A DNA stretch of 64,000 bases, from NCBI RefSeq assembly GCF_963675165.1, contig NC_087377.1, forward strand, positions 15,248,198-15,312,197. Reading direction: 5' to 3'. This document shows, piece by piece, positions 5,144 to 52,875 of the stretch. This stretch comes from Halichondria panicea (Eukaryota; Porifera; Demospongiae; Suberitida; Halichondriidae). The notes below the pieces were generated by a model that saw nothing but the letters and a program-made list of their open reading frames with translations, was not told the DNA's origin and did not search any database. The number at the start of each line of letters is the position of its first letter. The first letter of the stretch is position 1. The position numbers were made by a program, and so were the translations under genes.

Positions 5144-5169
5144 TTGGATTCAAAAGTTTTGAAAAATAA

Positions 5170-6188: not shown

Positions 6189-6278
6189 AATCATTGAAAT
6201 AATACCCCTTTCCTCCCCTCTCCAAGGCCAATTTAGACCAGGAGAGTACCATCTAACAAAAATCAGTCACACAGCACA

Positions 6279-10344: not shown

Positions 10345-10370
10345 TTGGATTCAAAAGTTTTGAAAAATAA

Positions 10371-15072: not shown

Positions 15073-15658
15073 GGGCATGCTGCACACTGCCATTCTGTTT
15101 TTTTTTTTACTGTAAATATGTATTGATATACTGTAAGAGCTTTTGCTTTGATGTGTTCAAACATTCCCAGCAAAACTCATGGCCTCTTCTTGCTGATTTG
15201 GTCTCCAGTGAAGTAACAACCCTTTCATTCAGAAATTAGGTGAGGTATACGTACTTATGTCTAGAGCGTTTATCTGATCTTATACTTTTCATATTAGAAT
15301 ATACAGCTGATGGACACACGACAGAGTTTTGCTGACATTCATTGTAGAGACTTTTCAAAGCACATACGACACAAAACTGGCCAATTTCATGACAATGCTC
15401 TGATTGAGTAAACGTGTACATTAATTTTATTTTAGTGTGCAGTCAGATGTTTGCTATTTCTCACCATCATTTGGATCACTAATTATTTTTCATAAACTAG
15501 AACACATGTATCACAGAGTTTGCTGTTCCCATGTTCTGCAGCCCTTCTGTAGAACTGGAAGCCATGATTAGTGATCATGAGGGCGGCCATAATATCAAAA
15601 CGGCTGACTCAGCAGTTGGAATCATTCCTGTCCTAGCCCCGCCCACTTTCTGGACAAA
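15073..15658 (+). promoter_or_regulatory. Upstream region of kanadaptin
   Basis: This 586-bp stretch between the hAT-like element and the kanadaptin start codon contains no gene that I can support. Near 15580-15600 there is GGGCGGCCATAAT, which resembles a YY1/initiator-type core, followed by TGACTCAGCA (AP-1-like). These sit 60-80 bases before the ATG and could mark the core promoter, but this rests only on short motifs. Confidence 0.3.
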
Positions 15659-22143: not shown

Positions 22144-25100
22144 TTAGAGCTGGATGACAATGGATCGACCAATCAATCCCCTCCTACTACTCTCACATTG
22201 AGGCATGTTAGAGTCACTGATTTGTCGAGGTGTCACTGTGAAGGTGTGGGCACCACCTGGAGCTAGACCAGTGATCACAAATGGACTGGTGCCTGCATTG
22301 TGTGTGTGTATGTGTGTGTATAATTATGTGTGTGTGTGTGTGTGTTGGAGGGGTTGAAACCCCCCAAAAATTGTGAGAAACTGCCTTATCAGCTGACCGT
22401 AAAATCGGGTAAACTACCTCTCCTAGTTTCATTAAAATTAGTATTGCTTACAAATTGGTTGCAGGAATAATTCTTACTATAAATAATTAGCTGTCTACTG
22501 GTATAGGCTTCTTTATATTTAGACAACACAGAAAAAACAGACACAGACCACGAACAGAAAATAAAAGGCAAACAGAGCCCAGCCTTGAGAGCCGAGAATG
22601 ATGGGTTAAAGAGTCTTTCACGCGGTGCACCAACACTCCCCAATTCATCTGTTGCATCCAGAATCACATAAAACTAGCACACTATTCACTTGGGCCATGC
22701 TGAATATCAAATCCAAGATAAGTCCTGGCCTATAATTTATGTCTGTATTGATTTGAGGTATTAAATGCTGACATAATTATAGGACTTATCTTAGACACTT
22801 GATATTGGCTGCTGTAGTACTTCAACTTAGCTTACATGGCTGTGTACATTTTGTGTGTAAACTAAATCTGACCTTGGGGAGGCTTAATTTATAAGGTACA
22901 GGCTGTATTTGTCTGGACCAGGTTTTGTGGTGGTAGTAGCTGATAATGGCGAATAGAGAAGAGAGTATCGAACATAGGCACACTGCACATCAGATGTATG
23001 CGGAGAGTAACGTGAACTGATTTCCTGTATCTGTCATGGGCTTGGAATTTGCACACTGACCAATATTATTAATCCAAGTGTGGGTGATCTAATCTACTTT
23101 CTTGATAACTTACATCACCTACACTTGGATTGGTCAGTGTGCAAATTTCAAGCTTGTGACAGATACTGCAGGAAGTCACATTACTCTCCGCATACATCTG
23201 ATGTACAGCATGCCTACGTTCGATACTCTCTTCTCTATTATAATTATACTCTTGATAATGGGGATGGGTCTATGTGGTTATTCTATGTGGCAAGCACAAA
23301 ACAATCTAATTTTGGTTAGCACCAGGCATTAGTCAGCACCAGGCATTAGTCAAAATAGTAGTGCGTGCGTGCGTGCGTGCGTGCGTGTGTATGTGCGTAT
23401 GTGTGCGTGCGTGCGTGCGTGTGTATGTGTGTGGGGGTGTACTAAAATAATGGTGAGTATGTGCATGCGGAGGTGATGCACATACTCACCAGTGCAGGCA
23501 GGTTAAGGTTTATAATAAATTATTATGGTGAGGTAGTAATGTAGTTAACTCACAATCTGTAGACGTTCCATTGGGCAGACGACACGTGAATTCACTGACA
23601 TTGACTTCAGCAGTTGGTCCAGTTCCGGCCCACTCCACAGTCACGTCACCAGATATGGGGTCAACCTCGTACTGCTGGTCAGTGAATACCATACTACAAT
23701 GTGTGTTGTCTGCAGGAGAGTTGAAACATCAATTATAGAGGATCACAGTACATCATGATCATAAAAATTAATAGTATAGCTATACAAACATGCTCTAACA
23801 GTATCTGAGTACACTCATCCAAAAACATTTACCGTATTCGTGGGTTAGCAATCCTCCACGAAATATAATTTTATAGCTAACGAAGGATCGACACAACGTC
23901 ATTATTTTGATCAATAGAACTCGTGGAATTTTTATGCTTTTAGAGGCCATTCCATGAAATTTAAGTGCCTCAAAATCTTCACTGTAAGGGTATTTCGATA
24001 CTACATCTAGTTGATAAGATCTACATGGAAAGTACATGGAAAAATGCCTCAGAGGAGGTATGCTATGGGACTTAGCATAATTATACCTACAGTTTACATA
24101 GTTTCCCCATTGTCAAGTATAATTGTATTATAGTCAGGCCTCGAGGGCAAGCCGTCAGCCACTTGTAGTACCCTCGCTACGCTCGGGATACTTAATCAGT
24201 GCCTTTGGGCTTCTAGACACCATATAGACACCCTCAAAACAGTGTCTAACTAAATTTAATTATTCCATACAAAGTCTCTCCTGACTATAATGATACGCTG
24301 CATATAATGTTATTGCCACACCTATACGGAAAGTTCTTTCTTTAAGCCCTGGAACAATTTGACTGGGACAGTGTGGCATAGAAGTAAGAAGAAGCTTATT
24401 GATAGTCCTCCTGCTTGTGACTGACTCTTGGTACCATTGTCCAGTGAAGCTACCAGTAGAGGGAGAACCTGTGTGTGTGTGGGGAGGAGTAAATAGTATT
24501 GAACAGATAGAAAATCGTTCATATAGTCAACACGATATGGCGTTCTTATAGTATAATGCATGTGCAGTCTAGCTATATATAATTTACTCACAGTCAAACT
24601 CGGCTGTTCTCGCTGTGATTTGACACAAAACTTGAGCACACCCAGATATGGTGAAGTCCACAGTGAGGTTCCTACCAAAGATTTGTGGAGAGTCATTGAA
24701 AAGAAGCAACTCATCGACATCTGCAAAAAGTGTTATAACAATTTTCGAAAAAACTCTTTAAGAAATTCAATATGCATGGAGCCGAAAGTTTACCGTACCT
24801 TCATCGTCATAGATGATCACAGTATTAGGCAGGTCATCGACAATACGGCTCCTCTCAGCAGAGGAGGTGAGGTTCAGGTAGAAAGCTTCACAAGGCTCAA
24901 CAATGGTGTCACCCATTATAGGCACAGATCCACACTGCATTGTGTCAGCAGGAGATGGGTTGGGGAAACTGAAGGTCACTGTGGAAGTAATGTAGTCGGA
25001 TCCACCTGTTGGGAAGTATAAGAAAAATGATTGTGACACTGAGTGCAATGACACAGTAGAAGCTGCCGTAATATTGACTGCCACATAAAATACTGTAACA

Positions 25101-28100: not shown

Positions 28101-31100
28101 AAAAACTTATTTGAAAGCTCCTCATAGTCACGGCCTGCAAATCAAAGTAAAAGGCTGTAATATATAATTGCACTATTCATGGGTATTACCATAGAGATAT
28201 ACTAACCACACTAGGCAATATACGGTTAAACAGTAGCCTCAGCTCTATAGACGATGGCGGCATACGATATAATTTTAAACAGTAGCCTCATTTCTATAGA
28301 CCAAGGCCCATGCAATAGTGCCAACCACTCAATAGTTCAAACCTACGTACCTGGAGTAGCCGTACCAGCTGTTGTGAATATCAACACACTCTGTTCCGAC
28401 CCTAAACTGCTATCCAGAATCTCAACTCCAACTGTCAGATAGCCATTAGTTTCATTCATAGTGAAACTGGAATTAACGAGCCCGACTCCAAGGACTGGAA
28501 TGGGGGTAGGGGTAATTAAAGTTACAATTTATATCAAGTTATATATACACTCCAAAGTACGTTATTTGGACGCTGTAAATGGTGCCATACTCAGGTCAAC
28601 AGATAATATATAGTTATACGTATAAGCACCACACTGCATTGGGGCGGGGCATCCACAACAATTAATACAGGTTTTTCTACTGAGAGAATTGTAGATACAC
28701 CAGATACACCTACCGTCATCGTCTAAGATGGACACGGAAGCATTGTCAGGTGACAGGATGTTCACAGGGTCACTGGTGGACAGCTCCACATAAAAACGTT
28801 CAATGTCCTCCACTGCACTGTCTTCGAGGATCACAATGTCCACACATGACATGGAGTTCACTGGAGAACCAGCGGCAAAGCTCAGAGTGTAGTCCGTCAC
28901 TGAGGTATAGTCAGAGCCAGCTGTGGAAATACAACACCATGCATGCATGACAACCAACTCGAATGACTCGGACGAACACAAATCATGCTCCGAACAAAAT
29001 TGTGATGGTGAAACAGCAGTAGTAGAAGTACCTCTCTACAGTAGAGTGTTTGGCCTCCAAATTTATTCCCTCTATATAATATAGCTTATAGCATACATAA
29101 CCTTTCCAAAAGCGAATACACGCACCAGCAGCTGTTCCTATGGTGGTGTCAGTGGTAGTGATATTGACGGCCACTTCCCGGGCCAGCTCCCCTCCGAGCA
29201 GAACAGCACATACAGACACATTGCCATCACTCTCGGCCACATTATAAGCATCTAGGGCCAGACTCACGTTGGCATCTGAAGGATAGAGCGTGAAGACTGA
29301 TCTTATTACAATAATTTATACATACAATAAGCTCATTTCCATTACTTTAACATTGGATAGTGCATAAGCTAGAGCCTTAGTTATCTAAAGAATCAAAAAC
29401 GCAGTAGGTATTAACTCACAGTCATTGTCTGAGATGACCACAGTAGCGTTGGCTGGCATGAGAGTAACTCCAGGGTCTATACTGCTCAGTACCAGACTAA
29501 AGTACTCGTCAGTCTCCACGACATCATCGGCCAGAATGGTCACATTCACACACCGAGGTAGTGCTGCTGCTGCTCGCTTCCTTCTTCTTCCCCAGTGAAG
29601 ATGTGTAGATGCAGGTGCGAATACAACGTCCACACTTGTAATAGCTTCTTCAATTTCTACAAAATCTTGCTTTCCTACAAAAAGAGGTATACATTGAGTT
29701 AGAATTGGAGCTATATCTACACACCTACAATGTATATGCATGTACACCTACTTACCAATAGCTGATCCATCCTGATTTTCCAGAGTGATGACAACGTCTC
29801 TACCCACCTCTCCAGAGAAGAGCTCCACACACACCTCCAAAATGTAACCATCTCCACTGGCGTCCTCCTCAGGCACTGGGTACACACTCTGAGAGAATCC
29901 AAACCTCACCACTGGTAAGGGGAGAAGGGATAAGTTGAGAGGTTAAATAATTATAAAGCTAAAGCAATTCAAGATTTATTTACCAAAGTTGATACCTACG
30001 CTTTTGTCCAGGTAGTGATGTAGTACATGTATACATACAAGTGGGTGGGTTTCATGAACTCACTTCCGCTGTCAATGATGTAGATTCGTGAGATACTGTT
30101 GTTCAATTTCACTCTGTCATCTCGAGAGGCCATTACTACAGAGAAATGTTCAGAGGTCTCCAGCAAGTTGTCCATCTCTATGGAGATGTTGATACATTGC
30201 TCCCCAGCCTCGGTGAAGGTGAGAGTGATAGAACCCATTCCAGTATCAAACGAGAAGTCATCATCATCTGCATGCATGCACACAACGTAAAAGGAAAAAA
30301 ACATTTCCAGACTACACAGATAATTATTATTATTTTGCCTCAGGACATTGACTTGATAGCTATAGTACACAGATGTATATAACACAATACATGCATGCAG
30401 TGCTCCTTATTCATGAGTGTATAACTATACGTGTTATGTCATCCTCACTCACACTTTGCATCTCCAGGCACAGTGAAGACCATGGCATTGACACTGGTCT
30501 CCAGCTCTCCATACAGGGAGACACACACCTCAACCACTCCCACTGATTCTGCTATCATTTTCGATACTGGTTGCAGATCAAGTGTTACACCTAATAGAGG
30601 AAGTATAAGAAAATAAAGCAGCATAGATATAATGTTACGGCATAGTTTGGCCATGCACGTACCACAAGCTATTTATTTTCTCTTAGCCTATATTATACGT
30701 ATATAGTTGTAACATAATTATACTTAATCACGTACAGGTATATATAATAAAGCCATTTCAATCATTATAGCTGTGGACAGGAATAGTATTATTGACTCTG
30801 ACTATAATATACGACACACACACACACTGTACTACACAACTCACAGTCATCATCTAGTATTGAGATTAGTGTGGACTCTTGCTTGAACTCTACACACGAG
30901 TCGTTGGTGGTCAGAACAGCCATAAACTGCTCAGTCTGTTCGTAGATGGTGTCATTGGCGATATCGATGGTCACACACAAGTCCTGATGAGCGTTGTCTG
31001 GCGTAAAGGTTAGTTCGTAGGAGGAGCCATTGAAGTCTGCTGGAGATGAAGCTGTAGGGGTGGGGTGGTGGGGGGTTAGAGGTGAAGGCTGACTCTCCTT

Positions 31101-37100: not shown

Positions 37101-40100
37101 TGTGTACAAAATGCTGTACAAATACACATAGCACTTTTCTTTATAGTGTGTTTACTTGCTTCACTTGGACTCACAAGGAGTTCATACTCGATTAACCCCT
37201 CCAGTCCTCCGGCAGGTACGTCCGTGATTCTCAACGGATAGTAAACAAATTCGTCTACTCCCTCCACCACTGTGAGATCGCTTGATAAGAAGTTAAGCGT
37301 GGGAACTGCCAAGGAGATGATACATAATTATTTGTTAGTGTAGTTTTGCTTATAAAATACTGTAACAAATTATTTGAAGCAAGTCGAATTAAAGAAGGCT
37401 CAAAATTGCAAGAAGAGCTTGGAGTGAGGGCCGGGGGAAGATCGAGGAGAGAGTGTAAAGAACGCTAGGGGGGGACATTAGGTATTTCAATTTGGTCAAT
37501 TAAAGTTGGCAACAATTTGGTTACTGTATAAAAAAAGCTTGAGTTATTGCTTGTTGAAAAGTGTGACAGTCACATTACTCGTATAGTTACAGGCACAGAC
37601 TTTCCAGTACCATGGAATAATATGTACGATACTTACTATTTGTGTTGGTGATAACAATAACGGTTTCACTGACATCAACTCGAGCATTGACAGAAGATAA
37701 AATAGATGAGAATTGTTGATCACTTTCAATGATCTCATCTTCCAGCAGACTAACAGTTACACAATCCTCAGAACCACCAGCAGAATTGAGGAAAAAACTT
37801 CCCACTGGATCATAATCACTGGCATCTAACGAGCAAAAAACGTACAATACAGTGCTACAATTTACTTAGTATACCTAGTATCATCTCTCGTTGTCAAGTA
37901 ATTGTATTGTAGTCAAGCCTTGAGGGCAGGGTCTGAGCATGCACACTAGTATCGAAACGAGTTAGACACTGTTTTGGAGGTGTCTATGGGATTTAGAAGC
38001 ACTGATTTAGTATCCCGAGCGTACACAAGGGTACTACAGGTGGCTGAGGGCTTTTAATTCACATGGACACCTCCAAAACAGTGTCTAACTATTATACAGT
38101 GTTTACATAATTATTAAGACACTCATAAATTGATCATAGGAGGAGTAAACTAGCAATGAGTAAGACTCTCTCTCTCTCTCTCTGTCTCCTCTCTCCATTC
38201 ATACCTGCAGTGTCGGGGACTAGTTTAAAGCTGAGCTCAATGTCTGCAACGATGGTGCCTGGCGATGTGTCTGTCACAGAAGTACAAACAGTAACGTTGG
38301 TACCTTCATCTCCAGTGACAACGGCAGAGGACACACTTACGGTAGCATCTGAAGTGATCAAAATATTCAGCATGTCACTATCAAAATTATGACACACAAA
38401 TAAGCTAAGCCATAAGATATTCTGTCGATCCATGTGATTGATCTCACCATCAAAGTCGCTGATGGTGACAGTTGTATTGGCAGTGTCTCTACCAAGAGGA
38501 ACAATATAGTTAGAGTCAGTCGGTAGAGATATAACAAACGAGTGAAAACCTTCAAAGTCGGCATCGTCGTTAGTATCAATAGTCAAAGAAAATGTTGTGT
38601 TTTCAAAGGCAACGAAATTGATGATCAAATCCGAAGGGTTGAATGTGATATCACTAGTATCTGTATATAATTGTAATTGTAAGCTGGTCTAGTTTTTTTA
38701 GTGGCTTACTTGTTAATGGATCAACAGAGAAATCGACACTAAGTGTGAGAAAGAAGTTGCTTTGCAGCTCTCCTGTTAGTCCAGTGAGTCTTCCAGTGAC
38801 AGTGAGGCTACTGTTCTCAGCAACAATGTAGCTAGCTTGGTCGAATGTTACACCAACTGTCGATTGCTCTGAAAATAAAGAGAACAATTCTAACAGCATG
38901 TGTGACGATGTGTTGATGACAGTGGCATAGGCAGAGGGGGGCTGACAGGGCTAGAGCCCACCCTTTTGTGCTCCATCAACTCAGCTTGAATCACTGTGAT
39001 CTGTCAATATATTTTGCACTGCACTGCACTACTGCATGCATACAATTTAGTTACTAGAATGATGTCATTCAATAGAAATGTGGGCAGGGCCATCTTATGC
39101 ACATGCTGACTGCTGAGGAAAAAGTAAAGACCTTTTTTAAGGTAAATTTCATGTTATTCAGCGCCTGCCCTGCTCAACCGATTTGAGCCCTGCCCTTCCC
39201 AAAATCCTGGCTACGCCACTGCATGAAACTTACCATCATCAGTAATGGTGACCTGCAGCGGGTCTCCTGCGGTTATCCCTGAGGGGTCTGTTGACGCTAA
39301 ATCAACACTAAGAGTGAACCCATGCTCAAACTCCAAATCATCGTCATCCTTCACACACAGCTGTGCCTCCCTCTGCAGGTTGTCTGGGGTGCAAGGGTCA
39401 CACGGACCAAACGTAACCAGGAGGGGCCCAATGCTAAAATCAACACCTTCCTCTGAAAATTGCAGCATATTATAGGTCAAAAACTCTGAAAGTAACAATT
39501 CATACCAGAAACTGTGTTTGAAGGTGTCCCCTCAGCAACCAGTGTGACTCTGACCGCGTTAGGTAATTCTTGAATTTCTACTCCATTAATTCTCGACAGA
39601 TTTGCTTGATACAGAATGCTAGCTTGATCACTCTCTATAGTTTCCAGTAAAGAACTGTTGCTAAGGGTCACTTGGTAACTGGAGGCTGCAATTAAGAAAA
39701 TTCAATCGTATAAAAGCACGTATAAGCTGTCCTACTTGTGATTAGATTTGCAATAGATGAAGTGACGTCACCAGCACTGTTGCTAACTCGGACTGAATAG
39801 CCATTGACATCAGACAAGGCAACATTCCCGATCATCAAGGTTGCCAAGGTAGCACCCGATATATTATCGATCATGTCAGAAAGCTCTCCAGCTCCATTCA
39901 TCCACTGGTAAGTCAAACCAACACCTTCAGCAGTGACAGAGAATTGAACATTAGTCCCTTCAACAACTAAGAGGAGGTCACTGGGATCACTCGTGATTAT
40001 TGGGAGACTGGCTGCAAGTGGAAAACAATAATAAACAGACAGCTGCAATTAAAGCCTATAAGGCATACTATATGTATACATGGAACATGTATACAATACA

Positions 40101-43100
40101 ATCTGAAACAAGACACTTCATAATCAGCACGTTTAATGAAATATTTGTACTGGTCACAATGTTGTCGAACCTATCACGCATAATATATCTTTGCAGTTTT
40201 AATTTTCGGAAAATGCTTGAAAAGTAGACCATAAGTATTGTGTAGCTCGTTATTGTATGTACCATATTCGTTAAGAAATTGATTAATTACGTGAACATCC
40301 TGGAGCAGTACCACTCCAGACGTCGTTGGTATTAGAGCCGTCTCCCCCACACACCCTCAAAGCATCCCCACTAGTTAGAGTGTAAAAAGTGTCACAAGTG
40401 TGAGTGGCCTCAGTGTTAAATGGAAACGGTTCGGTGCCAACAGGGTTGTAGCTGATGACAGCATTGTCGATGGCTGCTAAAGACGAGCACTGGATAGCTG
40501 TAGAAGAAACAATTCGCATATAGTAATGTAACCGAGGGTGTGGCTAGATGTGGCTAGGTATGTGTGTATGTATTCCTTCTGTACCTAACCAACGGTTGAA
40601 CTGCTTTAATGTATAGCTTAAGTTGGATTTTGACCAATAGATATACAAAATAAAGCTTCGTCCTCAATTATTGTACTTACTCTGAAGGCTTTATATGAAG
40701 TTTGCCCTACACTAATGTGCTAGTTATTTGTTAGCTAAAACCATCAAAAAAGCTGCAAAGCTATAATTATGTATCAACCTCCTAGAAACACATGCAGTCT
40801 CAAACTGTTGTGAGTAGAGTGTTTCAAGCTGAACGTAACTAGAATGAGGATCGGACTGTTGTGTGTAAACAAGCTAATCATTAATTTTATATTTACACGT
40901 ACGTACTGACCAAAGAAACAGATGTTGAAGGTTTCCCCCCATAATTCTAACCAGCAAACGTTTCATGACATGCTTATACAGGCCCGTATCTAGGGGGTGG
41001 GTTTCAGTGGTTGCAACCCCCCCAAACACTCACAAAAACTAGCTCAACCTACACTTGTGTTGCTTGTGGCTAAATGAGCAATGTGGTTAACTTATACAAG
41101 CTGTGAACTATGAAGTATTAGTATCTGTTGACATGAGTACAAGTCCAGGACACACTAAGTAGTCAATACACAATAATTTTCCTTCCACACATACCATTCA
41201 CATGTATTATGTATACATGACAAGGCACCTAGCTGTAGTAGACAGTAGATTTGTAGGTATATACTTTGTGCACGTTTACTATGATGTCAATTTCAATTAA
41301 GGGGGCGTGGCCAACATTTGTAATGCACGCACTTTTGTTTTATAACCCCCCTATACATTTTTGGCTGGATATCCGCCCCTGTTATATTAGTATTCCCACA
41401 TCAACCACACGAAATGGCCATACATTATATCAGATGAATCGGTATAGGCAGTATGTCACCGCTTAAATGGTGACCATCCGTGTCTTTACAGATGAACAAA
41501 ATGAAGACAAATTCAAAACGTATTGCTCCATAAGCATGCATGCAAACACAGAAAAAGGGCATCTTAAGTCTTTTTCAAGTGAAATGTATACCCGGTACCT
41601 ATACTTGGCTCCTGCATGCATGGTCATAACATCTTGAAAGAAAACAAGTACCTACCTTCACAGATTAGAGCTAGTCCGTTAAAAGCACCAATAGGGCTGC
41701 TGCCATCTCCAGTGCAACTTAAGCTGTTACCAACCAAATAAAACCCAGTGTAACAGCTGTAGGTGGCTACCACATCAAAGGCATAGTTGTTGTTTTCATC
41801 AGCAGTAGAACTGTATATCACACACCCATTGGTAGTAGGAGGTAAGGGAGGACAGGTTATAGCTATATGATGGAGAAACAATCAGCATAATGGTCATGTA
41901 GTTAAATACTCAACCTATACGGTTACAGACGACTTCACCAGTTTCAGACAATGATCATTCAAGCAGTTACAGTCGTTAAACTGTCCCATGCTATTCAAGC
42001 AAAAAGAATTTTGATCACCTCTATACTAGTAAAGTGCTCAGACGGACTTTCCAAGTGCGGCTGATTCATGAGACTATTATCATTATACCCACTCTCTGAG
42101 TTTAGCGTATATATAATATGTAGACTATAGAGAAGGTCCACTGTCGATCGTTCTATGTGCATGATTGTACTGCTGTCTTTATTCTTTTCAGACCACTGAA
42201 AGACCTCTCTGCTAAGTAATTATATAGTGACAGGCAGTGCACAATAATTATACTATCGCCACCATTGTTTATTAATTGTCCTCTACTGGTAGAGTGTGAT
42301 CTATGGAAGGTTATTAGAGTCAAAACAAAGTGTGCACTCACGTTCACAAGTTGGAGGTAATCTATCAAAAGCACCAGTAGTCCTGTTGCCATCTCCAGTA
42401 CACGTCCTTGTTTGGTCACCAACCAGAGAAAACCCAGCGTCACAGTTGTAGGTAGCAACCGTATTAAAAGCATAGGTACTGTTTTCATCAGGTGAGGCTC
42501 CACCAAAGTCAATACTGCCGTTGTTCGGGAATAGCAGAGCGGGGCATGTTATGGCTGCATGGAATTTGGAGATGGGAAGGAGTTTTTAGATTCTCAAAAC
42601 AGAATTATACACTTACGTTCACAAGTTGGAGGTAATCTATCAAAAGCACCAGTAGTGCTGTTGCCATCTCCAGTACAGGTCCTTGTTTGGTCCAACCAGA
42701 GAAAACCCAGCGTCACAGTTGTAGGTAGCAACCGTATTAAAAGCATAGGTACTGTTTTCATCAGGTGAGGCTCCACCAAAGTCAATACTGCCGTTGTTCG
42801 GGAAGAGCAGAGCGGGGCATGTTATGGCTGGAAGAAGATTGAAGGGAGTTTTTAGATTAAAAGTATGCACTTACATTCACAAGTTGGAGGCAATCCATTA
42901 AAAGCACCAGTAGTGCTGTTGCCATCTCCAGTACACGTCCTTGCTTGGTCACCAGCCAAAGAAAATCCATTGTCACAGTTGTAGGTCGCAACCACATCCA
43001 GGGCATAGGTTCCATTTTTATCAGCAATAGAACTGTATATCACAGATCCATTAGTAGGAGCAGTCGATGGAGGGCAGGTTATAGCTATATGATGGAGAAA

Positions 43101-46100
43101 CAATCAGCATAATGGTCATGTAGTTAAATACTCAACCTACGATTACAGACGACTTCACCAGTTTCAGACAATGATTCATTAAATCCATTCAAGCAGTTAC
43201 AGTCGTTAAACTGTCCCATGCTATTCAAGCAAAAAGAATTTTGATCACCTCTATACTAGTAAAGTGCTCAGACGAACTTTCCAAGTGCGGCTGATTCATG
43301 AGACTATTATCATTATACCCACTTTCTGAGTTTAGCGTATATATAATATGTAGACTATAGAGAAGGTCCACTGTCGATCGTTCTATGTGCATGATTGTAC
43401 TGCTGTCTTTATTCTTTTCAGACCACTGAAAGACCTCTCTGCTAAGTAATTATATAGTGACATGCACAATAATTATACTATCGCCACCATTGTTTATTAA
43501 TTGTCCTCTACTGGTAGAGTGTGATCTATGGAAGGTTATTAGAGTCAAAACAAAGTGTGCACTCACGTTCACAAGTTGGAGACAATTTATTAAAAGCACC
43601 AGTAGTGCTATTACCATCTCCAGTACATGTCCTTGTATGGTTACCAACCAGAGAAAACCCAGCGTCACAGTTGTAGGTAGCAACCGCATCAAAAGCATAG
43701 GTACTGTTTTCATCAGGTGAGGCTACACCAAAGTCAATACTGCCATTGTTCGGGACGATCAGAGCGGGGCATGTTATGGCTGCATGGAATTTGGAGATGG
43801 GAAGGAGTTTTTAGATTTTCAAAACAGAATTATACACTTACGTTCACAAGTTGGAGGTAATCTATCAAAAGCACCAGTAGTGCTGTTGCCATCTCCAGTA
43901 CACGTCCTTGTTTGGTCACCAACCAGAGAAAACCCAGCGTCACAGTTGTAGGTAGCAACCGTATTAAAAGCATAGGTACTGTTTTCATCAGGTGAGGCTA
44001 CACCAAAGTCAATACTGCCATTGTTCGGGAATAGCAGAGCGGGGCATGTTATGGCTGCATGGAATTTGGAGATGGGAATGAGTCTTTAGATTCTCAAAAC
44101 AAAATTATACACTTACGTTCACAAGTTGGAGGTAATCTATCAAAAGCACCAGTAGTGCTGTTGCCATCTCCAGTACAGGTCCTTGTTTGGTCACCAACCA
44201 GAGAAAACCCAGCGTCACAGTTGTAGGTAGCAACCGTATTAAAAGCATAGGTACTGTTTTCATCAGGTGAGGCTCCACCAAAGTCAATACTGCCGTTGTT
44301 CGGGAAGAGCAGAGCGGGGCATGTTATGGCTGGAAGAAGATTGAAGGGAGTTTTTAGATTAAAAGTATGCACTTACATTCACAAGTTGGAGGCAATCCAT
44401 TAAAAGCACCAGTAGTGCTGTTGCCATCTCCAGTACACGTCCTTGCTTGGTCACCAGCCAAAGAAAATCCATTGTCACAGTTGTAGGTCGCAACCACATC
44501 CAGGGCATAGGTTCCATTTTTATCAGCAATAGAACTGTATATCACAGATCCATTAGTAGGAGCAGTCGATGGAGGGCAGGTTATAGCTATATGATGGAGA
44601 AACAATCAGCATAATGGTCATGTAGTTAAATACTCAACCTATACGGTTACAGACGACTTCACCAGTTTCAGACAATGATTCATTAAATCCATTCAAGCAG
44701 TTACAGTCGTTAAACTGTCCCATGCTATTCAAGCAAAAAGAATTTTGATCACCTCTATACTAGTAAAGTGCTCAGACGGACTTTCCAAGTGCGGCTGATT
44801 CATGAGACTATTATCATTATACCCACTCTCTGAGTTTAGCGTATATAATATGTAGACTATAGAGAAGGTCCAGTCGATCGTTCTATGTGCATGATTGTAC
44901 TGCTGTCTTTATTCTTTTCAAACCACTGAAAGACCTCTCTGCTAAGTAATTATATAGTGACAGGCAGTGCACAATAATTATATTATCGCCACCATTGTTT
45001 ATTAATTGTCCTCTACTGGTAGAGTGTGATCTATGGAAGGTTATTAGAGTCAAAATTCTTAGCTTTTGTCCCAGTATTTGTCCCGGTGTTTGTCCCAGTA
45101 AAATAATGTCCCGGCAAATGTCCCGGTAACGCCTATTTCCAGTGGGCGAGATGTTAGCATTATTATTCTATCATGGAATTCAAAAGTGCGAAAGGAAGAT
45201 TTACCTTCAAGTTACTCTATAAGTCTACCTATAATTATATATATAAGTTTGATGGAGAACTTTGCAATGTTGGATCTGCCTATAAGACAATCGATGTTCA
45301 GTTGTGCATAGCTATCGCCATATTTGTGACTTTGTGCCTGATCATAGGTACCATTTTCCGTGAAGCTGTGGCTTATGCCCTTTCTTGTGTTTGTCTAAAA
45401 AACCTCAGACTGCATGAAGCTAAAGCAAGAGGAGGCTCTCATACACCTCGACGATGGTCTGTGTATGCAAGTTAATGAACTAGCAATTGATTTAGTAAAT
45501 TTGTTAGTAAATTCTTTGTACAATTAACCTTTTGTACTATGGTCACCAACGGAGTCCAACCAACTGCCACGCAGTTGGTTGGACTCCACATACGAGTGAT
45601 CTTACTGAGATGGCATCAAACAAGCGTCTATAGAAGCGAGTAGACTTACAAGAGCCGGTTGGTACTAGCCGTTCCTTATCTGAAAGAACGCCTGGTCATG
45701 TTCCAATGTGCAACTTGTCTAATTGGTCCAGGAATTTCTTGGACCGATAATTGCTCGCATAAGGTGTATACCCATGAATATCATTATGATGCTGTAAACC
45801 GCTGACTCAGCTAGATGAGTTGCACATTGGAACTTGACCAGGCGTTCACGAACGGCTGCATGGTCTCGAGGCTAGGTCGGTACTGACAGAAAAACTCCCC
45901 CACTCTACCACACTACAAAAAAAGACGAAACCTGACTTTTCAACACTGGAGAGAGCGTGAGCAAGAGCAGAAGAGAAGTAGAAGCCATCACAAACAAAAC
46001 TAGTCACTATAGGCCGTAAATGTTGTAAGTATCTGTGTTACTTTTTTTAAAAACTGCTATATATGATTGTGCAATGACATCTTTGTATACTGACAAGATA

Positions 46101-49100
46101 TCTCGACTCCCAAGAATCTTAGGGGCAATTGACGCATGCGCAGACAGTGTATACCAGGCCGTCTTTTTCAATTGAGAGCGGCCTGGAATCGAGGCTACTA
46201 AATAGCTAGCTGCTTTAGCAGCTCTTTTCTGACTCAGTCTTGTAGCTAATAAAATGCTAGCGCTTTAGTGCAAGGCTAACTCATAATTATGTTGAATAGA
46301 AACTTTGTGCGAACAAATAATGCTATGAAAGATTTTGAAGAGACTGCAACAGCCTTCAATGTTAGTCAAACTAGCCATAACTCGAGAAAGAAGCTTTATT
46401 TTGCTAATCCACAAATCAAAATCCAAGAGAACGTGGCTAGAAGCCTATAGAAGCTGTTCGTTTTCGTCGCATTGAGCAGTTACAGCTGGAATAGACACAC
46501 ACACAGACACACACACACACACACACACAGTCGTATCCCTCATGCGGCTATGCCTCGAGGCATAATGAATCTTACGTACGTAGGCACACAGGAATCAGTT
46601 TAGACCATCTCCCTCCGACAAAACACTCTCGAGTCTCAGATCCGACCAGACTGAAACCAGGATTACAGGTATGAGTAGCCACTGTACCCGCATCATAATC
46701 AGGAGAAGAATCAGGACCATATGTAATAGCTCCGTTTGGAATGGTTTGCAGTGCTGGACATTCAGTGCTGGACATTCAGCTGTAGAGATAATGATTATGC
46801 ATGTGTTAGAGTTTAAATTGAATGCACGTGCAAAGATACCAACTCTAACTGACAACTACACACACAGCATTGTAAGTGTAACTATAAATTCTTGTCACAA
46901 AATTTAATGGTGCAATCTGACCACAAATGCCATCATGAAATTGATCACAAATCATAATAAGCATGCAGTAATGGGTATAATGAAAGCACCGCGGGTGCTG
47001 ATGCCTCGGTGGAGGTGCCAAAGCTACATACCATGCATATAGTGTTTTTAAACACATTAAATGCCACTGCATTTATAATTTTGATGAGCATTTTTGCATT
47101 TGCATGCAGAACTCAATCAGTGTGTAATATCGACACTGTTGTTGTTAAAAACGATCAATGCCAAAAGTTCAAGCCTAAGGCTGCATCTTGCAGCTCTCTT
47201 CTCACTGGTGCAGCTACCAATAGCTAGCGTTCTAGACTAGTGCAGAGCTAACTACTAAGTAGAGTACACTGTAAAAAGAGATGTGCCATTATAGCACGCG
47301 TGTAGCGTGTTACACATGTGCCAAACTGCTTAAAGTAAAGGTTTACCACTGCTAATAGATCTGCCACATGTAACTATACTATACAATTAAATAGCTCACC
47401 ATTTAAGCATCCGGCAGGCACAACTTCGTCTCCGTCCGCTTTAAATATCCAAACTCCAGGAGTCCCTACGTTGCTTGTAGTGTGAATGTTAGTGACTCGC
47501 GATGAAAATGAGTCAGGATGGCTAAAGAACCGAATTCCATCACCAGCATTCAGACCCACTTGACCGGGATTGTCCCACTGAATCCCTCCATCAACATACA
47601 AGAACATTACAAAAGTTGACTGACCATCAGTTGCCAAAACACATTGAAAAGTGCTTGTCTGCAGTATCGAAACAGAAGCATATTATTATAGCACAGGTAT
47701 AATTATTATTTCGAGGGTATAAACTTTCCCGTTTTTCATTGATTATAGACATGCGAACACAAATATGCATGTGCCAAAAAGCCGATAGTCAAATCCCCGA
47801 AAGTGAATACCCACAAAATAATTATACCTGCTGTACTGGTAACAAGAAAACTAACACTTACGTACCACATCAACTTCGCGCTCATGTCTCCCAACATGGT
47901 CCCATGTTGCAACAAGCAACCACGCTGGAGTGAATGGAAGTTGGTCTGGAAATGCTCTTTGAATGTCAGTTGCAGCTCTCCCTAGAGTTGTTGAATCAGT
48001 AGCAATGCGATACCATACTAGACCACTTAGAGAGTTTCGAGTATCTAAGTCAACCCAGTAGGGAGTGATAAGCTGAAGGTTATTTGCAAGAGGAAATGGG
48101 TCTGGTACATATGAACCAGAAGGATCAAAAAATGTGATGTGTCCATTTGTATTCACCTGCATGTGTTGTGAAGAACAAAAAGGTTATTCACTGCATGATA
48201 ATTCTTGTCAGAAATACTAATAATAGTATATGTATCTTAATCACTTACAAATTATGCTCCATATCAAAACCGCTAAGCCATTAGCTTCAATCCACACTGT
48301 GTATAAAGATGTACTTACATAAAGTTGGTTGTGAATTTGTCCATAGTACGGTAAACCGATGTTAGGTAGAGATACGACTGGGGATGAGTTGTCATCTCCT
48401 CTTGGTAGTGAACTATCTCCAGCAGTAGTTCCAAATGAATAGAAATCACTTTGTGGAAGGGCTACAACAGAAGTAGAAAAGTATCACCCAAAAAGCTGCA
48501 AAAAAACTCATCTTAGATTTAGTATTCATTTTCAGTATAGATATACTTTCACAAAACAGTCTAGTACAACCGTTTCAAAGGCTTGACAATTAGTCATTAT
48601 CATAATTATAATGTTTACCACAGGTGGGTGGATAGATAAACCAATACTAATTTTCAAAGAACAATCCATTTTCTCTTTCAATACCACAGGTGGGTGGATA
48701 GAGAAACCAATGACAGGCTAGGCGGTAACAATTCATTTTCAGTATAGATAATTATACTTTCAACAAAACAGTCTAGTACAACCGTTTCAAAGGCTTGACA
48801 ATTAGTCATTATCATAATGTTTACAGGTGGGTGGATAGATAAACCAATACTAATTTTCAAAGAACAATCCATTTTCTCTTTCAAAGGCTTCAATTAAGCC
48901 ATACTGTCATTATTATCATGTTGTTTGTACCGGGCCACAGCCGGGTGGATCAATGGACATGCAGGGTGCATGCATGTATCTACTTCAAAGATCTAGAACA
49001 ATCTGCATGAACAAGTACAGGGTTATTATTCGTATGGTGGAAGCAGCACCTAGATCTACATGTGTGAAATTAAAACTGCGCATTTTCTGGCACATTAGGT

Positions 49101-50851
49101 TCAATGTCACTATCCTGAGCTGTACAAAAACAGAATTTAAATGCGTAGTTCGTATGTAACTAACGTAAATGCATATCCTATGTCATGTGATTTTTAACCC
49201 AATGAAATGCGAGTATTGCCTCCGTGGAATTTGGATTACAGCCAATGGAATTTGGATACAGCCAATGAAATGAGCTATATACATCTACTCCTTCTTTATA
49301 ACTTCCAATATCACAAGTCTCGACATTCCAAGAGCACACGAAGTGCTGCAAGAGTCTCCAAACCTCTTTCTCCTCTTCCCCAACCTCTTTCTGAGAAAAG
49401 GTCTGGCCCCCAAACTATGTCAGTGTCTGTGTGTGTGTGTAGACTGCTACAGCTGCTCAAGGATAAATGAAGTGACAGTAAGAGTTTCTATAGGCATGTT
49501 CAGTGGCGCCGGTAGGAAGCAATTTATCAATGGGGGGGGGGCTCTCTAGTTTTGTGAATGGAAAAAAGTGCGGCTATATCTACATAGTGCAGCTTGATAA
49601 GTAATCTCTACTTTATAGCCTAGGGGGGGGGGCTCCAGCCCCTGGAGCCCCCCCATCTTTCCCCTTCCTACACCACTAATTTTTTCTTTTGTGAATTTGA
49701 AAAATTAATGCTTTGTTCGATACTAGTTTTGCTTACTTGGAATGCCATAGCAGCCTTTTCAGAAGAGTAATTAGCTCTGCACTAGAACACTAGCTATTGG
49801 TAGCTGCAAGAGTGAGAAGAGGGCTGCAAGGCTTATCTGATGCAGCCATGCATTCATTTTAACTGTTGGCATGGATCGTTTATAACAACAATCATGGCCA
49901 ATCATTATTCTAGTCTCATGAATCAGCCGCACTTGGAAAATCCGACTAGAAAAACATTTGGAATGTGAAAAATTGCTAGGATTGGCCGGGGGAACCACCA
50001 AAAAGCGTGGAAACAAGAAATCAGACGAGAGCATAACTCCAATCCCTTACAGCGTCATGAACATGTACAATACATTACATTTATATAGCATCACAATAAG
50101 GAATTATAAAGGAGATTGATGTATATAGACTGCATGTGTTCCAGATCCATCTATACCAGCTTCCATCCACTACATATACTACATGTCACTACGCATGGAT
50201 GGACTGTGTATACCTGTGCTCAATTAACACTGCATGTATTAGGAACATCAATTCATCACTGTGACAAAATTAATCATGATTATATGCCCGCATGCATGGA
50301 TGTATAATTATAATTATATATAATTATAGGGATCGGTCATCACCCCATGCACCTGTAAAAATTGCTTGGATTGGCCGGGAAAACATGGAAAACTACCAGT
50401 ATACATGTGAATGACGTTGTAACGGATTGGAGTTATGCTCTCGTCTGATTTCTTGTTTCCACGCTTTTTGGTGCTGGTTCCTCCGGCCAATCTTTAGGCT
50501 AGCAATTTTTCACATTGCAAATGTTTTTCTAGTCGGATACTCACAGGACTGGAGTGTATATCTGCTCATTTGAGCATTGTTCTGGTAGCTCAGAGGCATC
50601 AAGAGACTCTTCGTTTCTCAAGCAGCAAGGTTTACCTGAGTAGGGGGGCCTAGAATCAGAGAGGTCCAGCAGCCTGCTAACCTTCTTGAAACGTAATTTG
50701 AGGCATTTAATCATCCTGAAGTTGCCTTGCATGTCAGGCCTTGTGAAGCTTCCTATGTGCATCTTTTGTATATACACTCTGTGAATTTTCTATGTTCTCT
50801 TGTTCATTGCTGAACAAGAGAGTTCCAGTCCAAAGTTCTCACTAAACCATT

Positions 50852-50897
<46 letters not shown>

Positions 50898-52875
50898 CTC
50901 AATTATTGGTTTATTAAATATTTTTGCGGACCACAAAATACAATGAAAATTTGACGCATGCGCAGACAGCTATACAAATATTTTCCTGATAGACCGTTCT
51001 GTGGTTGTATTTAACTGTTTCTAGCTCTCTTATCCACTAGCGATCACTCAAGTTTACACTACTGAGTCTAACTAGCTCTAAGTCCGTTGTCTTTGTTGAC
51101 TTTCAACTCTATGTCAACTTTTCTTTCCCTGATGTGAAGCAAAGGACATTGCTTGACTTGGTGTTATGTATCTAAGGGCTATAGTCTCGCGAGCAACCGT
51201 CGAAGGGGGAACGACGTATTTCCCCCTTCGACGGCTGCTCGCGAAACTATCTAAGGGCCACATAGAATGGCTTCATGATATGGATAAACTTTACTGTTCA
51301 ACGAGTGTTGCACTGCGCTGTGCTATTGCCTCTCGCCATGTTATGCTTTCGCTCAAGAGTGTTATAGTAGGGAGAATACCGTATAGCGGGTAATTTTCGT
51401 GGGGTAAAATATTCGTTATTTTCGTGGGCAAGCTGACCTCCACGAAATGTTAACGTATAGGCGTGGCTTACCGTAACGTATGAATGCAGTGCAGGCAATG
51501 AGACTAAACGAAATTTATACTCACGAAAATCACCGTTTTCCAGATAAACGAATTTTTTACCCCACAAAAATTACCCGCTATACGATACTATTATACTCTA
51601 AGCACTTGCTATTAAAATTATGATAACTCAAAAGATTATCTTTAGAGAACATTGTTGCATCCAGAAACATTAGAGTGACTTACGTTCGCAGGTGAGGTCA
51701 AGTCCACTCCAGCTGCCAACACCAGAATCATCGGTACTGTTCATACAAGTTCTAGGGTTTTCACATGTGAAACCAAAACCGGCAGAGCAAGAGTGTGTAG
51801 CAACCGTTCCCGCGGGGTAAATAATTCGTGGTTGGTTGTAGTTCAGCATTCCGTTGAACATAAGTGGCTCGCAGTAATCTGCACAATTAGAGCAAGTGCA
51901 TGCATGTAAAGTCACATGCATATTCTAGACTATCATGCATGCGTGGTCACCTAGTAGGATCATGAACATTAATGGTGCATATGCATACAAAACAACTCGC
52001 AATTGTCATGCTGACAATTCGACCTGGCCTTGGCCTTGGCTCATGAAGTTCGGTTGGGCTTAATTTGCTGATGACTATAGCCTCAAATCTAGGCCAATTA
52101 CAATCGGCCTGGATTCAAGGCTAAGTTCCGACAGGCGCGTGTAGGGCCACCAAACACACACTAAACAGGAATAGCTAAGCAAATCCTATGATGTGGGCGG
52201 ATAATTATATTGGATTAGAGCTGCATCGCACCAGTCCTCCGGTAGTATAGCTAGTAAATCTAAAGCAAAACGTAGACATATATAGATGCCTTACTCTAGC
52301 ATAATTGGGAAAAGCCTAGTCCATACATGCAGACAATACATGAACATGCAGTACACATAGATAGAGATTTGAGGCTATAGTCATCAGCAAATTAAGCCCA
52401 ACCGAACTTCATGAGCCAAGGCCAAGGCCAGGTCGAATTGTCAGCACGACAATTGCGAGTTGTTTTCTTTTAGATTAAAATCCGTGAAACTATGGTGTGG
52501 CCTAACTACCAAACCGTTCCAAAAATCCCAACCACAGAATAATAGCACAGTCTGTGGTTACTACAGTTGTAGATCCTATAGTCTATGGCATTTGTTAGCA
52601 TAATATATAGTTTTTTCTTTGATCTCTGTACAAAAAAACTACAATTATTAGTCCATGCATGCATTAATGCATGAACATGAGTCAAAATTTTTTGCGAAAA
52701 CATGCACACACAATCGCACTGTCAATCCTATGTACAACCTATATATATATACTGGTTGTATACTAATAACAGCTTCAATTCATTCTATAAGTATATAGCG
52801 AGACTTACCACACAATATTTGAGGAATTTTGCACAACAGGAAAACTGCTGCAAGAACAAACAAGAAGTCCTTCAT
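22144..52875 (-). CDS. Giant secreted sushi-NIDO-Ig-Calx-beta protein, 57 exons
   Basis: I placed 57 minus-strand exons totalling about 10.8 kb of coding sequence (about 3590 aa). Order from the N-terminus: signal peptide, one sushi, a NIDO region, ten sushi, one Ig, nineteen Calx-beta repeats, then a C-terminal module ending ...IVIQL with no transmembrane helix, so the product is probably secreted. From exon 6 onward every exon starts and ends in phase 1, typical of exon-shuffled extracellular modules. Many NxT/S sites are present. Calx-beta repeats bind calcium and build long rods. Sponge aggregation factors and vertebrate FREM/ADGRV1 proteins use them, but I know no named family with this exact order. 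Exon 6 has a 14-bp tandem duplication and exon 12 a 2-bp deletion; both break the frame if included. Start chosen for its signal peptide. A collinear paralogue follows at 55618. Individual exon blocks are listed in separate entries. Confidence 0.85.
22952..23239. mobile_element. Fold-back repeat in intron 56
   Basis: Inverted arms of over 100 bp: AATAGAGAAGAGAGTATCGA on the left pairs with the sequence ending TCGATACTCTCTTCTCTATT on the right, continuing through TCCGCATACATCTGATGT and CCAATCCAAGTGT-like stretches. The rest of this 1.26-kb intron holds a TG-rich tract (22296-22345), a smaller inverted repeat (about 22705-22815) and a GTGC-type microsatellite at about 23360-23433. Confidence 0.75.
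23828..23995. mobile_element. Diverged TACCGTATAGCG-family MITE in intron 55
   Basis: Read on the minus strand it contains GAGGCACTTAAATTTC, GGCCTCTAAAAGCAT and GGATTGCTAACCCACGAA, the same order as in the copy at 19051-19260. The outer termini are degraded. It lies between exons 55 and 56 of the giant gene. Confidence 0.65.
24133..24260. repeat. Dispersed repeat (copy also at about 37912-38089)
   Basis: Shared motifs with 37912-38089: AGTC-x-x-GCCT-x-GAGGGCA at the start, a stretch with GTACCC/GGGATACT-like sequence, and AACAGTGTCTAACT at the end. In the second copy GTTAGACACTGTTTTGGAGG (37961 onward) is inverted at 38066-38089. A further short piece is near 35948-35970. No coding capacity. 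Confidence 0.55.
27346..27730. mobile_element. hAT-like MITE in intron 48
   Basis: Starts CAGTGGCGGATCCAGAGGGGG and ends CTAGATCCGCCACTG. TATAT directly flanks both ends (27341-27345 and 27731-27735), and the match can be extended to TATATCA if the terminus is drawn two bases further in. This terminal sequence is common among hAT-derived elements. Confidence 0.7.
38920..39221. mobile_element. 302-bp MITE with CAGTGGC termini in intron 18
   Basis: CAGTGGCATAGGCAGAGG at the left and CTGGCTACGCCACTG at the right, with a CTGACAGGGCTAGAGCCC palindrome near the left end. It resembles the element at 27346-27730 in its termini and in the AAGACCTTTTTTAAGGTAAA stretch inside. It lies just outside the exon 18 donor. 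Confidence 0.65.
39736..40011 (-). other. Exon 16: immunoglobulin domain
   Basis: 92 codons in phase 1-1: LPIITSDPSDLLLVVEGTNV, then LTYQWMNGAGEL and VNGYSVRVSNSAGDV. The Trp, the D-x-x-x-Y motif and the strand spacing are those of an I-set type Ig domain, although the usual Cys pair is replaced (F-S-V before the Trp, and V in the Y-x-V position). Confidence 0.8.
40498..41655. other. Intron 14, with an inverted-repeat element at 40979-41381
   Basis: This 1158-bp intron holds no exon I can support. At 40979-41381 an element starts CAGGCCCGTATCTAGGGGG and ends GGCTGGATATCCGCCCCTG, a degenerate inverted terminus of the hAT-like CAG...CTG type. The surrounding sequence is AT-rich and unremarkable. 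Confidence 0.55.
41925..45053. repeat. Segmental duplication of sushi exons with their intron
   Basis: An intron segment of about 420-430 bp (with CAGACGACTTCACCAGTTTC, and GTACTGCTGTCTTTATTC near its end) occurs three times: about 41925-42341, 43132-43566 and 44634-45053. The first two precede sushi exons on the plus strand, forming units of about 1.2 kb (three sushi exons) and 1.5 kb (four sushi exons). The third copy is broken at 45054 by inserted repeats. Exons within and between units are nearly identical. Confidence 0.85.
45054..46196. mobile_element. Composite repeat insertion in intron 6
   Basis: At 45054 the duplicated intron sequence switches to repeats of TGTCCC[AG]G, then a plus-strand open frame of 100 codons (45173-45475, with a hydrophobic stretch, not recognised and probably not a gene). 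From about 45470 to 46196 comes a copy of the element at 11948-12546 in the opposite orientation, ending GGCCTGGAATCGAGGCTA with its terminal hairpin. Inside it, 45660-45860 is a separate fold-back (GAACGCCTGGTCA ... TGACCAGGCGTTC), and 45549-45591 is a short hairpin around GAGTCCAACCAACTGC. Confidence 0.65.
46197..47399. other. Non-coding parts around sushi exon 6
   Basis: Outside exon 6 (46580-46779) I see no coding sequence. There is a CA microsatellite at about 46495-46528. Near 47266-47330 a GTACACTGTAAAAAG stretch is followed by an inverted GCACGCG/CGTGTAGCGTG motif, and it may be a fragment related to the palindromic MITE at 12888-13020. Confidence 0.45.
47400..48461 (-). other. Exons 3-5: NIDO-type region
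   Basis: Exons 48319-48461, 47866-48156 and 47400-47658 join in phases 0 and 0 and leave in phase 1. The peptide contains LPYYGQIHNQLYVNTNGHIT, then LITPYWVDLDT, WLLVATWDHVGRH and VMFLYVDGGIQW. This is the pattern of the NIDO domain of nidogen-like and mucin-4-like extracellular proteins (an NG-x-I-x-F strand, a P-x-W-x-D segment, and a late hydrophobic-aromatic strand). These are the only exons in the gene that do not follow the 1-1 phase rule at both ends. Confidence 0.75.
48490..48890. repeat. Direct duplication of about 190 bp in intron 2
   Basis: The sequence from ATTCATTTTCAGTATAGATA through CAAAACAGTCTAGTACAACC, GACAATTAGTCATTATCAT and GGTGGGTGGATAGATAAACC to CAATCCATTTTCTCTTTCA occurs at about 48524-48682 and again at about 48729-48882, with small indels. 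A third short piece with GGTGGGTGGATAGA is at 48685-48702. No gene is present. Confidence 0.75.
49501..49677. mobile_element. Short MITE with CAGTGGCG termini
   Basis: CAGTGGCGCCGGTAGGAAGC at the left, CCTTCCTACACCACT at the right, with a GGCTCCAGCCCCTGGAGCC palindrome inside. A close relative occurs at 62913-63063 in an intron of the paralogous gene, so this family was active around both genes. Confidence 0.65.
49941..50537. mobile_element. 597-bp fold-back element in intron 2
   Basis: Left arm TCCGACTAGAAAAACATTTG, then TTGCTAGGATTGGCCGG and GCGTGGAAACAAGAAATCAG. The right arm is the reverse complement ending TTTTTCTAGTCGGA. Arms are about 110-120 bp. The interior is AT-rich without open frames of note. 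Confidence 0.75.
50836..50903 (-). rRNA. Fragment of 18S ribosomal RNA gene (about 68 bp)
   Basis: The plus strand reads CTCACTAAACCATTCAATCG, then GTAGTAGCGACGGGCGGTGT and GTACAAAGGGCAGGGACGTA. This is the reverse complement of the highly conserved 3' region of eukaryotic 18S rRNA (the universal GACGGGCGGTGTGTACA primer site). The match stops abruptly on both sides, so it is an isolated rDNA scrap within intron 2 of the giant gene, not a functional rRNA gene. Confidence 0.85.
51180..51247. mobile_element. 68-bp perfect-type hairpin insertion
   Basis: Arms of about 29 bases (TCTCGCGAGCAACCGTCGAA against TTCGACGGCTGCTCGCGAAA, with a GGGGGAA/TTCCCCC core) and a loop of about 7. The direct repeat TATCTAAGGGC flanks it at 51169-51179 and 51248-51258, so it looks like a tiny inserted element with an 11-bp target duplication. 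Confidence 0.65.
51377..51587. mobile_element. TACCGTATAGCG-family MITE in intron 2
   Basis: TACCGTATAGCGGGTAATTT at the left, AAATTACCCGCTATACGATA at the right, 211 bp in all, the same size as the copy at 13224-13433. It lies about 100 bases from the exon 2 donor. Confidence 0.8.
51684..51878 (-). other. Exon 2: N-terminal sushi (CCP) domain
   Basis: 65 codons in phase 1-1, beginning DYCEPLMFNG and ending WSGLDLTCE. The spacing of cysteines, the central GTVATHSC and the Trp before the last Cys match the sushi/CCP fold. It is separated from the NIDO exons by a 3.2-kb intron full of repeats. Confidence 0.85.
51990..52466. mobile_element. Fold-back element of about 477 bp in intron 1
   Basis: Arms of about 95 bp: AACAACTCGCAATTGTC, CTGACAATTCGACCTGGCC, GCTCATGAAGTTCGGTTGGG on the left and the reverse complement on the right. 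In its interior, GGCCAATTACAATCGGCCTG followed by GGATTCAAGGCTA recalls the terminal hairpin of the element at 11948-12546. No gene is present. Confidence 0.75.
52809..52875 (-). other. Exon 1 of the giant Calx-beta gene: signal peptide
   Basis: The ATG at 52873-52875 opens MKDFLFVLAAVFLLCKIPQI, a short basic start followed by a hydrophobic core, as expected for an ER signal peptide. The exon is 67 nt and ends in phase 1 at a gtaagt donor. This matches the phase of the exon 2 acceptor at 51879-51880. Confidence 0.8.

Follow-up and report, generated by a model that had tools for sequence, protein, structure and literature searches.

The window analysed here is a 64,000-nucleotide stretch of the Halichondria panicea genome (131 Mb in 39 contigs) that corresponds to C1:15248198-15312197, and positions given without a contig refer to it. 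Its minus strand carries a single open frame that runs from an ATG and signal peptide at 52875 to a stop at 22144 and comprises 56 exons and 10,551 nt, encoding 3,516 residues with no internal stops. The predicted protein consists of a signal peptide, one sushi domain, a NIDO domain, nine further sushi domains, an Ig domain, 19 Calx-beta units and a 193-residue C-terminal module. The gene and its neighbour are made up of the following features.

52809-52875, minus strand: exon 1, signal peptide MKDFLFVLAAVFLLCKIPQILC with a phase-1 donor; top candidate in secretory-first-exon scans
51684-51878, minus strand: exon 2, sushi 1 (exon chain and Pfam)
48461-48319, 48156-47866 and 47658-47400, minus strand: exons 3-5, NIDO, a symmetric phase 1-1 cassette (Pfam NIDO, 1.1e-49)
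47355-49154, minus strand: segment homologous in pieces, introns included, to C11:2931586-2935561 (blastn and alignment)
46580-46779, minus strand: exon 6, sushi 2, with the model acceptor at 46753 (splice scores and sequence)
41656-44586, minus strand: exons 7-13, seven intact sushi domains, starting at 44586, 44329, 44054, 43779, 43084, 42554 and 41862 (exon chain and Pfam)
42617-42827, minus strand: sushi exon frameshifted by a 2-nt deletion, outside the model
40291-40497, minus strand: exon 14, last sushi (exon chain and Pfam)
39736-40011, minus strand: exon 15, Ig, I-set-like (23.3 bits against a cut-off of 23.7)
24799-39685, minus strand: exons 16-52, 19 Calx-beta units (Pfam; largely collinear with paralogs)
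29420-29674, minus strand: exon 43, furin-like motif RRRKR within Calx-beta 14; a similar motif occurs in paralogs U1 and P1
24720-24592, 24468-24322, 23709-23554 and 22292-22144, minus strand: exons 53-56, C-terminal module of 193 residues and stop
55618-63941, minus strand: 3′ part of the upstream tandem paralog U1, with Calx-beta units and the same C-terminal module (model and matches)

Elsewhere in the window, region 1-10900 holds two copies of a transposase open frame, presumably of PiggyBac type, that lie 5,201 bp apart and are each accompanied by a 157-bp minisatellite; the copy at 1078-2748 (minus strand) matches Pfam DDE_Tnp_1_7 at 8.8e-69. A 288-residue open frame at 15608-16474 (plus strand) contains an FHA domain (1e-16). 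No Rfam element in the window scores above its gathering threshold.

Exons were located by combining coding statistics with splice-site weights, the latter learnt from 62 exons that include those of the window gene itself, and the chain was then completed by hand. Specifically, exon 1, the acceptors of NIDO and sushi 2, and several C-terminal splice sites and last exons were set from the sequence; the automatic chain begins at 51861, within exon 2. An initial exon model proved too permissive and was set aside; later models contained some small exons with neither a domain nor a paralog, and these were removed by hand. With coding statistics trained on U1, the minus strand yields a single gene of 9,060 nt in which 49 out of 51 exons start in phase 1, while the plus strand yields only a 384-nt scrap and all 20 dinucleotide shuffles are free of any gene. 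In the completed chain, every exon after the first starts in phase 1, save exons 4 and 5 within NIDO (phase 0). Two further candidates were rejected: an additional sushi exon at 46485, which has an in-frame stop, and a partial exon near 44740, present in three copies within the sushi block, which is phase-incompatible.

The original prediction had joined 57 exons with phase continuity at every step. Fifty-six of these do join openly, but the 57th, the sushi exon at 42827-42617, is shifted out of frame by its 2-nt deletion. The ten sushi domains counted after NIDO are accordingly nine in frame and one frameshifted, and another of them carries a 14-nt tandem duplication. Phase continuity extends through the body of the gene but encounters three problems in the head, namely a weak NIDO acceptor, the 14-nt duplication and the 2-nt deletion.

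Pfam searches with pieces of the chain match Sushi (2.1e-59, nine stretches), NIDO (1.1e-49, covering profile positions 1-185 of 186 and hence a full-length match) and Calx-beta (1.1e-34 in five stretches and 6.9e-121 in ten, each stretch significant by itself). Such a profile search had been proposed as a check, and it bears out sushi, NIDO and Calx-beta but leaves the Ig marginal, the I-set score of 23.3 bits falling slightly below the cut-off of 23.7. The orthologous Ig of another paralog, P2, exceeds the cut-off for Ig_3 and, by its score, also that for I-set. A weak cEGF match lies inside the sushi block, which was built by nested duplications (41650-45055) and includes one 1.26-kb (1,260 bp) tandem pair that is 97.2% identical. 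No Pfam match to AMOP, VWD, C8-3, FN3 or CSPG repeats is present in the protein. PDB sequence searches with NIDO and with one Calx-beta exon return nothing at E 0.01.

The figure of 19 Calx-beta units is an exon-pair count, made up of 17 pairs, unit 18 as a single exon and unit 19 as 129 + 207 nt. When these units are aligned, four acidic columns are occupied in 18, 18, 17 and 19 of the 19, and three further columns in 11, 15 and 14; two cysteine columns are occupied in 13 and 12 units, both jointly in 12. The protein as a whole carries 489 acidic and 110 basic residues, 69 N-glycosylation sequons and an RGD at residue 108, within NIDO. The RRRKR motif in Calx-beta 14 suggests possible cleavage into two chains. 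Elsewhere in the genome, a Calx-beta match at C6:2382998-2383231 lies within a 10,065-codon open frame.

No membrane segment follows the signal peptide (maximum 19-residue hydropathy 1.65), and the proposal that sushi and Calx-beta domains occur together in one secreted gene product with no membrane anchor holds. The protein does not end in Calx-beta units as had been supposed, because a conserved C-terminal module of 193 residues follows them. This module matches no Pfam family above its cut-off, with Kre9_KNH only sub-threshold, and has a single PDB match at E 2.1. It resembles the tail of a NIDO-Calx-beta gene on C2 (E 1e-6), and its match to the tail of the C11 relative discussed below comprises only 18 aligned residues (E 0.021). 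The C2 gene, at C2:266-281 kb (C2:266001-286000), has a NIDO-EGF-Calx-beta order with a similar tail, and includes a near-identical run of single-exon Calx-beta units with a spacing of ~406 bp.

The second half of the C-terminal module recurs at 19 genomic places, 17 on C1 and two on C4 (one partial); a match on C12 with E 0.185 was excluded from this count. The places on C1 form clusters near 7.77-7.97, 15.27-15.42 and 16.21-16.38 Mb, with a single place at 10.64 Mb. Judged by these matches, the window gene is a member of a clustered family of very long, predicted secreted Calx-beta proteins. The modelled exons of U1 and of plus-strand P1, whose 5′ ends are provisional, encode Calx-beta units and the C-terminal module and show no match to the window sushi, NIDO or Ig. 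Similarity across the family is patchy: exons 30-37 of the window gene are nearest to P2 (79-98% identity), exons 42-49 resemble U1 and P1 much more closely than they do P2, and for exons 20-29 the other copies offer a poor match (54% at best) or none.

Paralogs also bear on whether the sushi and Calx-beta blocks belong together. P2 (C1:15403900-15419435, plus strand) carries sushi, Ig, Calx-beta and the same C-terminal module, and across the joint its exon sizes equal those of the window gene (276, 180 and 219 nt) at 73-86% identity. A third copy, at C1:16330155-16331503, retains the joint with identities of 68% in the last sushi, 84% in the Ig, and 81% and 92% in Calx-beta. The Ig-Calx-beta joint alone occurs at at least ten places in the genome, seven of them within one tandem array. 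This array (C1:16258307-16287428) holds at least seven tandem Ig-Calx-beta copies, of which alternate copies repeat at 9,448 bp; no sushi exon match was found at E 1e-6 in the array unit at C1:16250001-16260000.

The exon model points the same way. In runs with coding statistics trained on the window gene itself, a gene cost of zero introduces no break between 43219 and 24007, an interval that spans sushi, Ig and Calx-beta, although breaks do appear within the sushi block (43497-43219) and in the C-terminal exons (24007); under the same setting P2 stays whole from 15405322 to 15417026 and loses its ends. At a gene cost of -6, the head is severed at 47255-44723. When the sequence is scanned for first exons that encode a signal peptide and end in a phase-1 donor, 52875 ranks first, with weaker candidates at 52384, 42761, 41562/41541, 30558, 25901 and 23950 (two of the last three within Calx-beta exons). 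The candidate at 41562/41541 has a hydropathy of 2.74 and a poor donor (1.8), and because it lies upstream of the last sushi, its use would still leave sushi with Calx-beta. A division into two genes between the sushi and Calx-beta blocks, which the original prediction had named as its refutation, is contradicted by the paralog joints and the exon model, with which the start scans agree. On this comparative evidence we regard it as nearly certain that the sushi-to-Calx-beta joint lies within one gene.

The same paralogs limit how unusual the domain order is. The order is real as one frame, but it had been called novel, and this stands only in part: the sushi-Ig-Calx-beta portion is kept in two paralogs and is therefore shared, and NIDO and Calx-beta also occur together at two C2 loci. 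The special feature of the window gene is probably a recent capture of NIDO rather than the domain order as such. No published description of the full order was found in the open literature searched (one open library only); Calx-beta, NIDO and sushi appear in a figure legend on Halichondria pattern-recognition receptors (PMC8242945). At C9:5620481-5658884, Calx-beta matches lie amid many same-strand sushi matches, possibly representing another sushi-Calx-beta gene.

The weak points of the model lie in the head. The NIDO acceptor at 48461 scores 3.35, and an out-of-frame rival 34 nt upstream scores 6.12 and leads to a stop after 16 residues. In sushi 2, the 14-nt tandem duplication puts the strong acceptor at 46779 (7.32) out of frame, with a stop after 61 residues, and the in-frame acceptor at 46753 is weak (1.55) and entails loss of the first cysteine. 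Exons 5 and 7 are phase-compatible, so that the frame is kept by skipping exon 6 or by using 46753; the frame is also preserved if the frameshifted sushi at 42827-42617 is skipped. These lesions may be assembly errors, alleles or decay.

If the strong acceptor at 46779 were used, the locus would yield two products. The 14-nt duplication would truncate the first to a short secreted protein of sushi and NIDO (52875 to ~46600), and the sushi-Ig-Calx-beta part downstream would be a gene of its own. A 2-kb gap between exons 6 and 7, the division of the model within 47255-44723 at the gene cost of -6, and the possible secretory start at 41562/41541 all favour such an arrangement. However, scanning the 2-kb gap revealed no first exon that combines a signal peptide with a phase-1 donor, and the frame survives by either route past exon 6, so we consider two products unlikely. 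Continuity of the transcript through NIDO is instead the reading we adopt, and in our judgement the NIDO part is likely to belong to the same transcript as the body.

The nearest relative of the window NIDO lies at C11:2933341-2935504. By blastn, window positions 49154-47355 match C11:2931586-2935561 piecewise, with stretches of 1 kb and 1.1 kb exclusive to C11. The three NIDO exons are 93.7, 93.5 and 95.0% identical to C11 in DNA and the first intron 86%, and homology covers the introns and ~0.7 kb of upstream flank before it stops. The C11 gene encodes NIDO, VWD (9e-15), a MUC4-like C8-3 (C8-3_MUC4) and EGF, along with an AMOP-like stretch identified by eye alone. MUC4 shares this NIDO-AMOP-VWD-type order. 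Mesh is likewise described with the same domain order as the C11 gene (PMC4964579), and this agreement makes C11 the likely source.

Both borders of the cassette, the start of exon 3 and the end of exon 5, are in phase 1 in the model, as in a class 1-1 shuffling module, which is described as a domain with phase 1 introns on both sides (PMC8001218). Of the 110 NIDO matches at E 0.001 (126 of 126 candidates scored), none lies near any of the 19 family places other than the window gene, in a search where a missing match does not prove absence. From these comparisons we infer that the window gene probably acquired its NIDO recently, as a whole phase 1-1 cassette; how recently and in which direction it was copied are part of this inference. 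The dS between NIDO and C11 is 0.041, compared with 0.285, 0.129 and 0.239 for body blocks against P2 and 0.208 against U1; single body exons W30, W32 and W35 have dS values against P2 (0.026-0.038) as low as that of NIDO, so the low NIDO value alone is no proof of later arrival.

The cassette may also carry a signature of selection. Over 693 coding nt it differs from C11 at 41 positions and has no indels, whereas the noncoding portion, which is partly poorly aligned, shows 60 mismatches and seven indels in 439 aligned nt. This indel contrast gives P = 0.004 on the assumption that only the window copy is unconstrained, and P ~0.05 when one of the seven, a 9-nt indel at the exon 5 end that the C11 model places in coding sequence, is counted as coding. 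The absence of indels from coding nucleotides indicates that the NIDO reading frame is probably maintained. The dN/dS of NIDO is 1.68, against 0.36-0.44 in body blocks and up to 2.17 in single body exons; the NIDO-body difference in synonymous and nonsynonymous counts is significant (Fisher p = 0.006 and 0.004), and the excess of dN over dS in NIDO alone is not (p = 0.19). The pattern would fit relaxed or diversifying selection.

These same values could also reflect a decaying head, in which the NIDO insertion and the damaged sushi domains have no function or are skipped, leaving the sushi-Ig-Calx-beta body as the sole working part. The high dN/dS of NIDO relative to the body and the two frame lesions are what such decay would produce. 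Yet NIDO is free of stops and has 0 indels where 5.5 would be expected if it were free to change (a contrast that weakens when the 9-nt gap is counted), its excess of dN is not significant by itself, and body exons W46, W48, W54 and W55 also exceed a dN/dS of 1 against U1. We therefore give decay of the head a low probability.

Similarly improbable in our view is an old NIDO present in both genes and only recently homogenised by gene conversion. The homologous tract is short, its exons are more alike than its flanks, and single Calx-beta exons have very low dS to P2 where their neighbours do not, so that sequence exchange among copies may be frequent here. Against conversion, the other 18 family places have no nearby NIDO match, and homology spans the introns and the ~0.7 kb of upstream flank before ending. 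In the reading we favour, the intron separating sushi 1 from sushi 2 would have received a copy of a whole phase 1-1 exon cassette, together with its introns, from the MUC4/Mesh-like C11 gene. Because the likely source gene and its introns still align, the capture step is directly open to study.

Calcium binding is expected of Calx-beta domains whose acidic positions are conserved, and the usual ligands of sushi, Ig and NIDO domains are proteins or glycans. The most likely arrangement is that the 19 Calx-beta units bind calcium and make up a rod that is stiff, acidic and glycosylated, with the sushi-Ig part and, in this copy, NIDO acting as a binding head and the C-terminal module as a candidate for assembly or anchoring. 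Its site of action would be extracellular, where the protein would mediate calcium-dependent adhesion between cells or of cells to matrix; differences among the heads of paralogs could provide specificity. The original suggestion of an extracellular rod with a head, serving adhesion or matrix assembly, is thus plausible by domain analogy, and the evidence together points to a secreted protein whose head changes and which would take part in calcium-dependent adhesion or in assembling the matrix. Taken as a whole, the account of one gene in a secreted, calcium-binding adhesion or matrix-rod family, with a NIDO head recently copied from C11, seems to us somewhat better than an even proposition.

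Shuffling of phase 1-1 modules is held to underlie much of the animal extracellular toolkit (PMC8001218). A bolder and rather doubtful extension is that the family keeps capturing cassettes and exchanging them between paralogs, thereby fitting its common calcium-stiffened rod with new recognition heads, such that individuals or species differ in their heads and the newest head is under diversifying selection. If true, an adhesion and self-recognition repertoire would be arising from exon shuffling still in progress. Provided the gene is transcribed as modelled, the capture has placed a domain known from junction or mucin proteins on a long adhesion rod, which would allow a test of whether recognition changes when heads are exchanged.

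Several known systems share parts of this architecture. SNED1 is a secreted matrix protein in which NIDO occurs with sushi, and FRAS1/FREM are secreted matrix proteins carrying Calx-beta. The window protein resembles SNED1 in its NIDO and sushi domains but differs in having no FN3 match and 19 Calx-beta units; it shares Calx-beta with FRAS1/FREM but has many more, with no CSPG-repeat match. NIDO is also shared with MUC4, Mesh and SUSD2 (NIDO-AMOP-VWD, with sushi as well in Mesh), and the apparent C11 source gene is of this type. In contrast, the window NIDO precedes the sushi domains and is joined to a Calx-beta rod, with no AMOP, VWD or C8-3 match and no transmembrane helix. Long extracellular Calx-beta arrays are likewise found in the adhesion GPCR ADGRV1/VLGR1, whereas the window protein has no C-terminal 7TM, no GAIN/GPS (Pfam) and no hydrophobic helix. 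A NIDO-Calx-beta-7TM gene at C2:5.234-5.246 Mb (C2:5234001-5254000; 7tm_2, 1.6e-4) is reminiscent of an ADGRV1-like GPCR with a NIDO head.

The sponge aggregation factors, reportedly treated by Grice et al. in 2017 (MAFp3/MAFp4, AqAF), are like the window gene in being very long and secreted, with many Calx-beta domains and clustered paralogs. They carry a Wreath domain and, in some groups, VWD. At E <= 1e-5, VWD is absent from the window and the family clusters, with 15 matches elsewhere (46 of 46 candidates scored). In Oscarella, five aggregation-factor candidates are described as falling in expression on dissociation and four as rising on reaggregation (PMC8380372). Compared with these factors, the window gene has no VWD match in the gene or its clusters and adds a head of sushi, Ig and NIDO domains.
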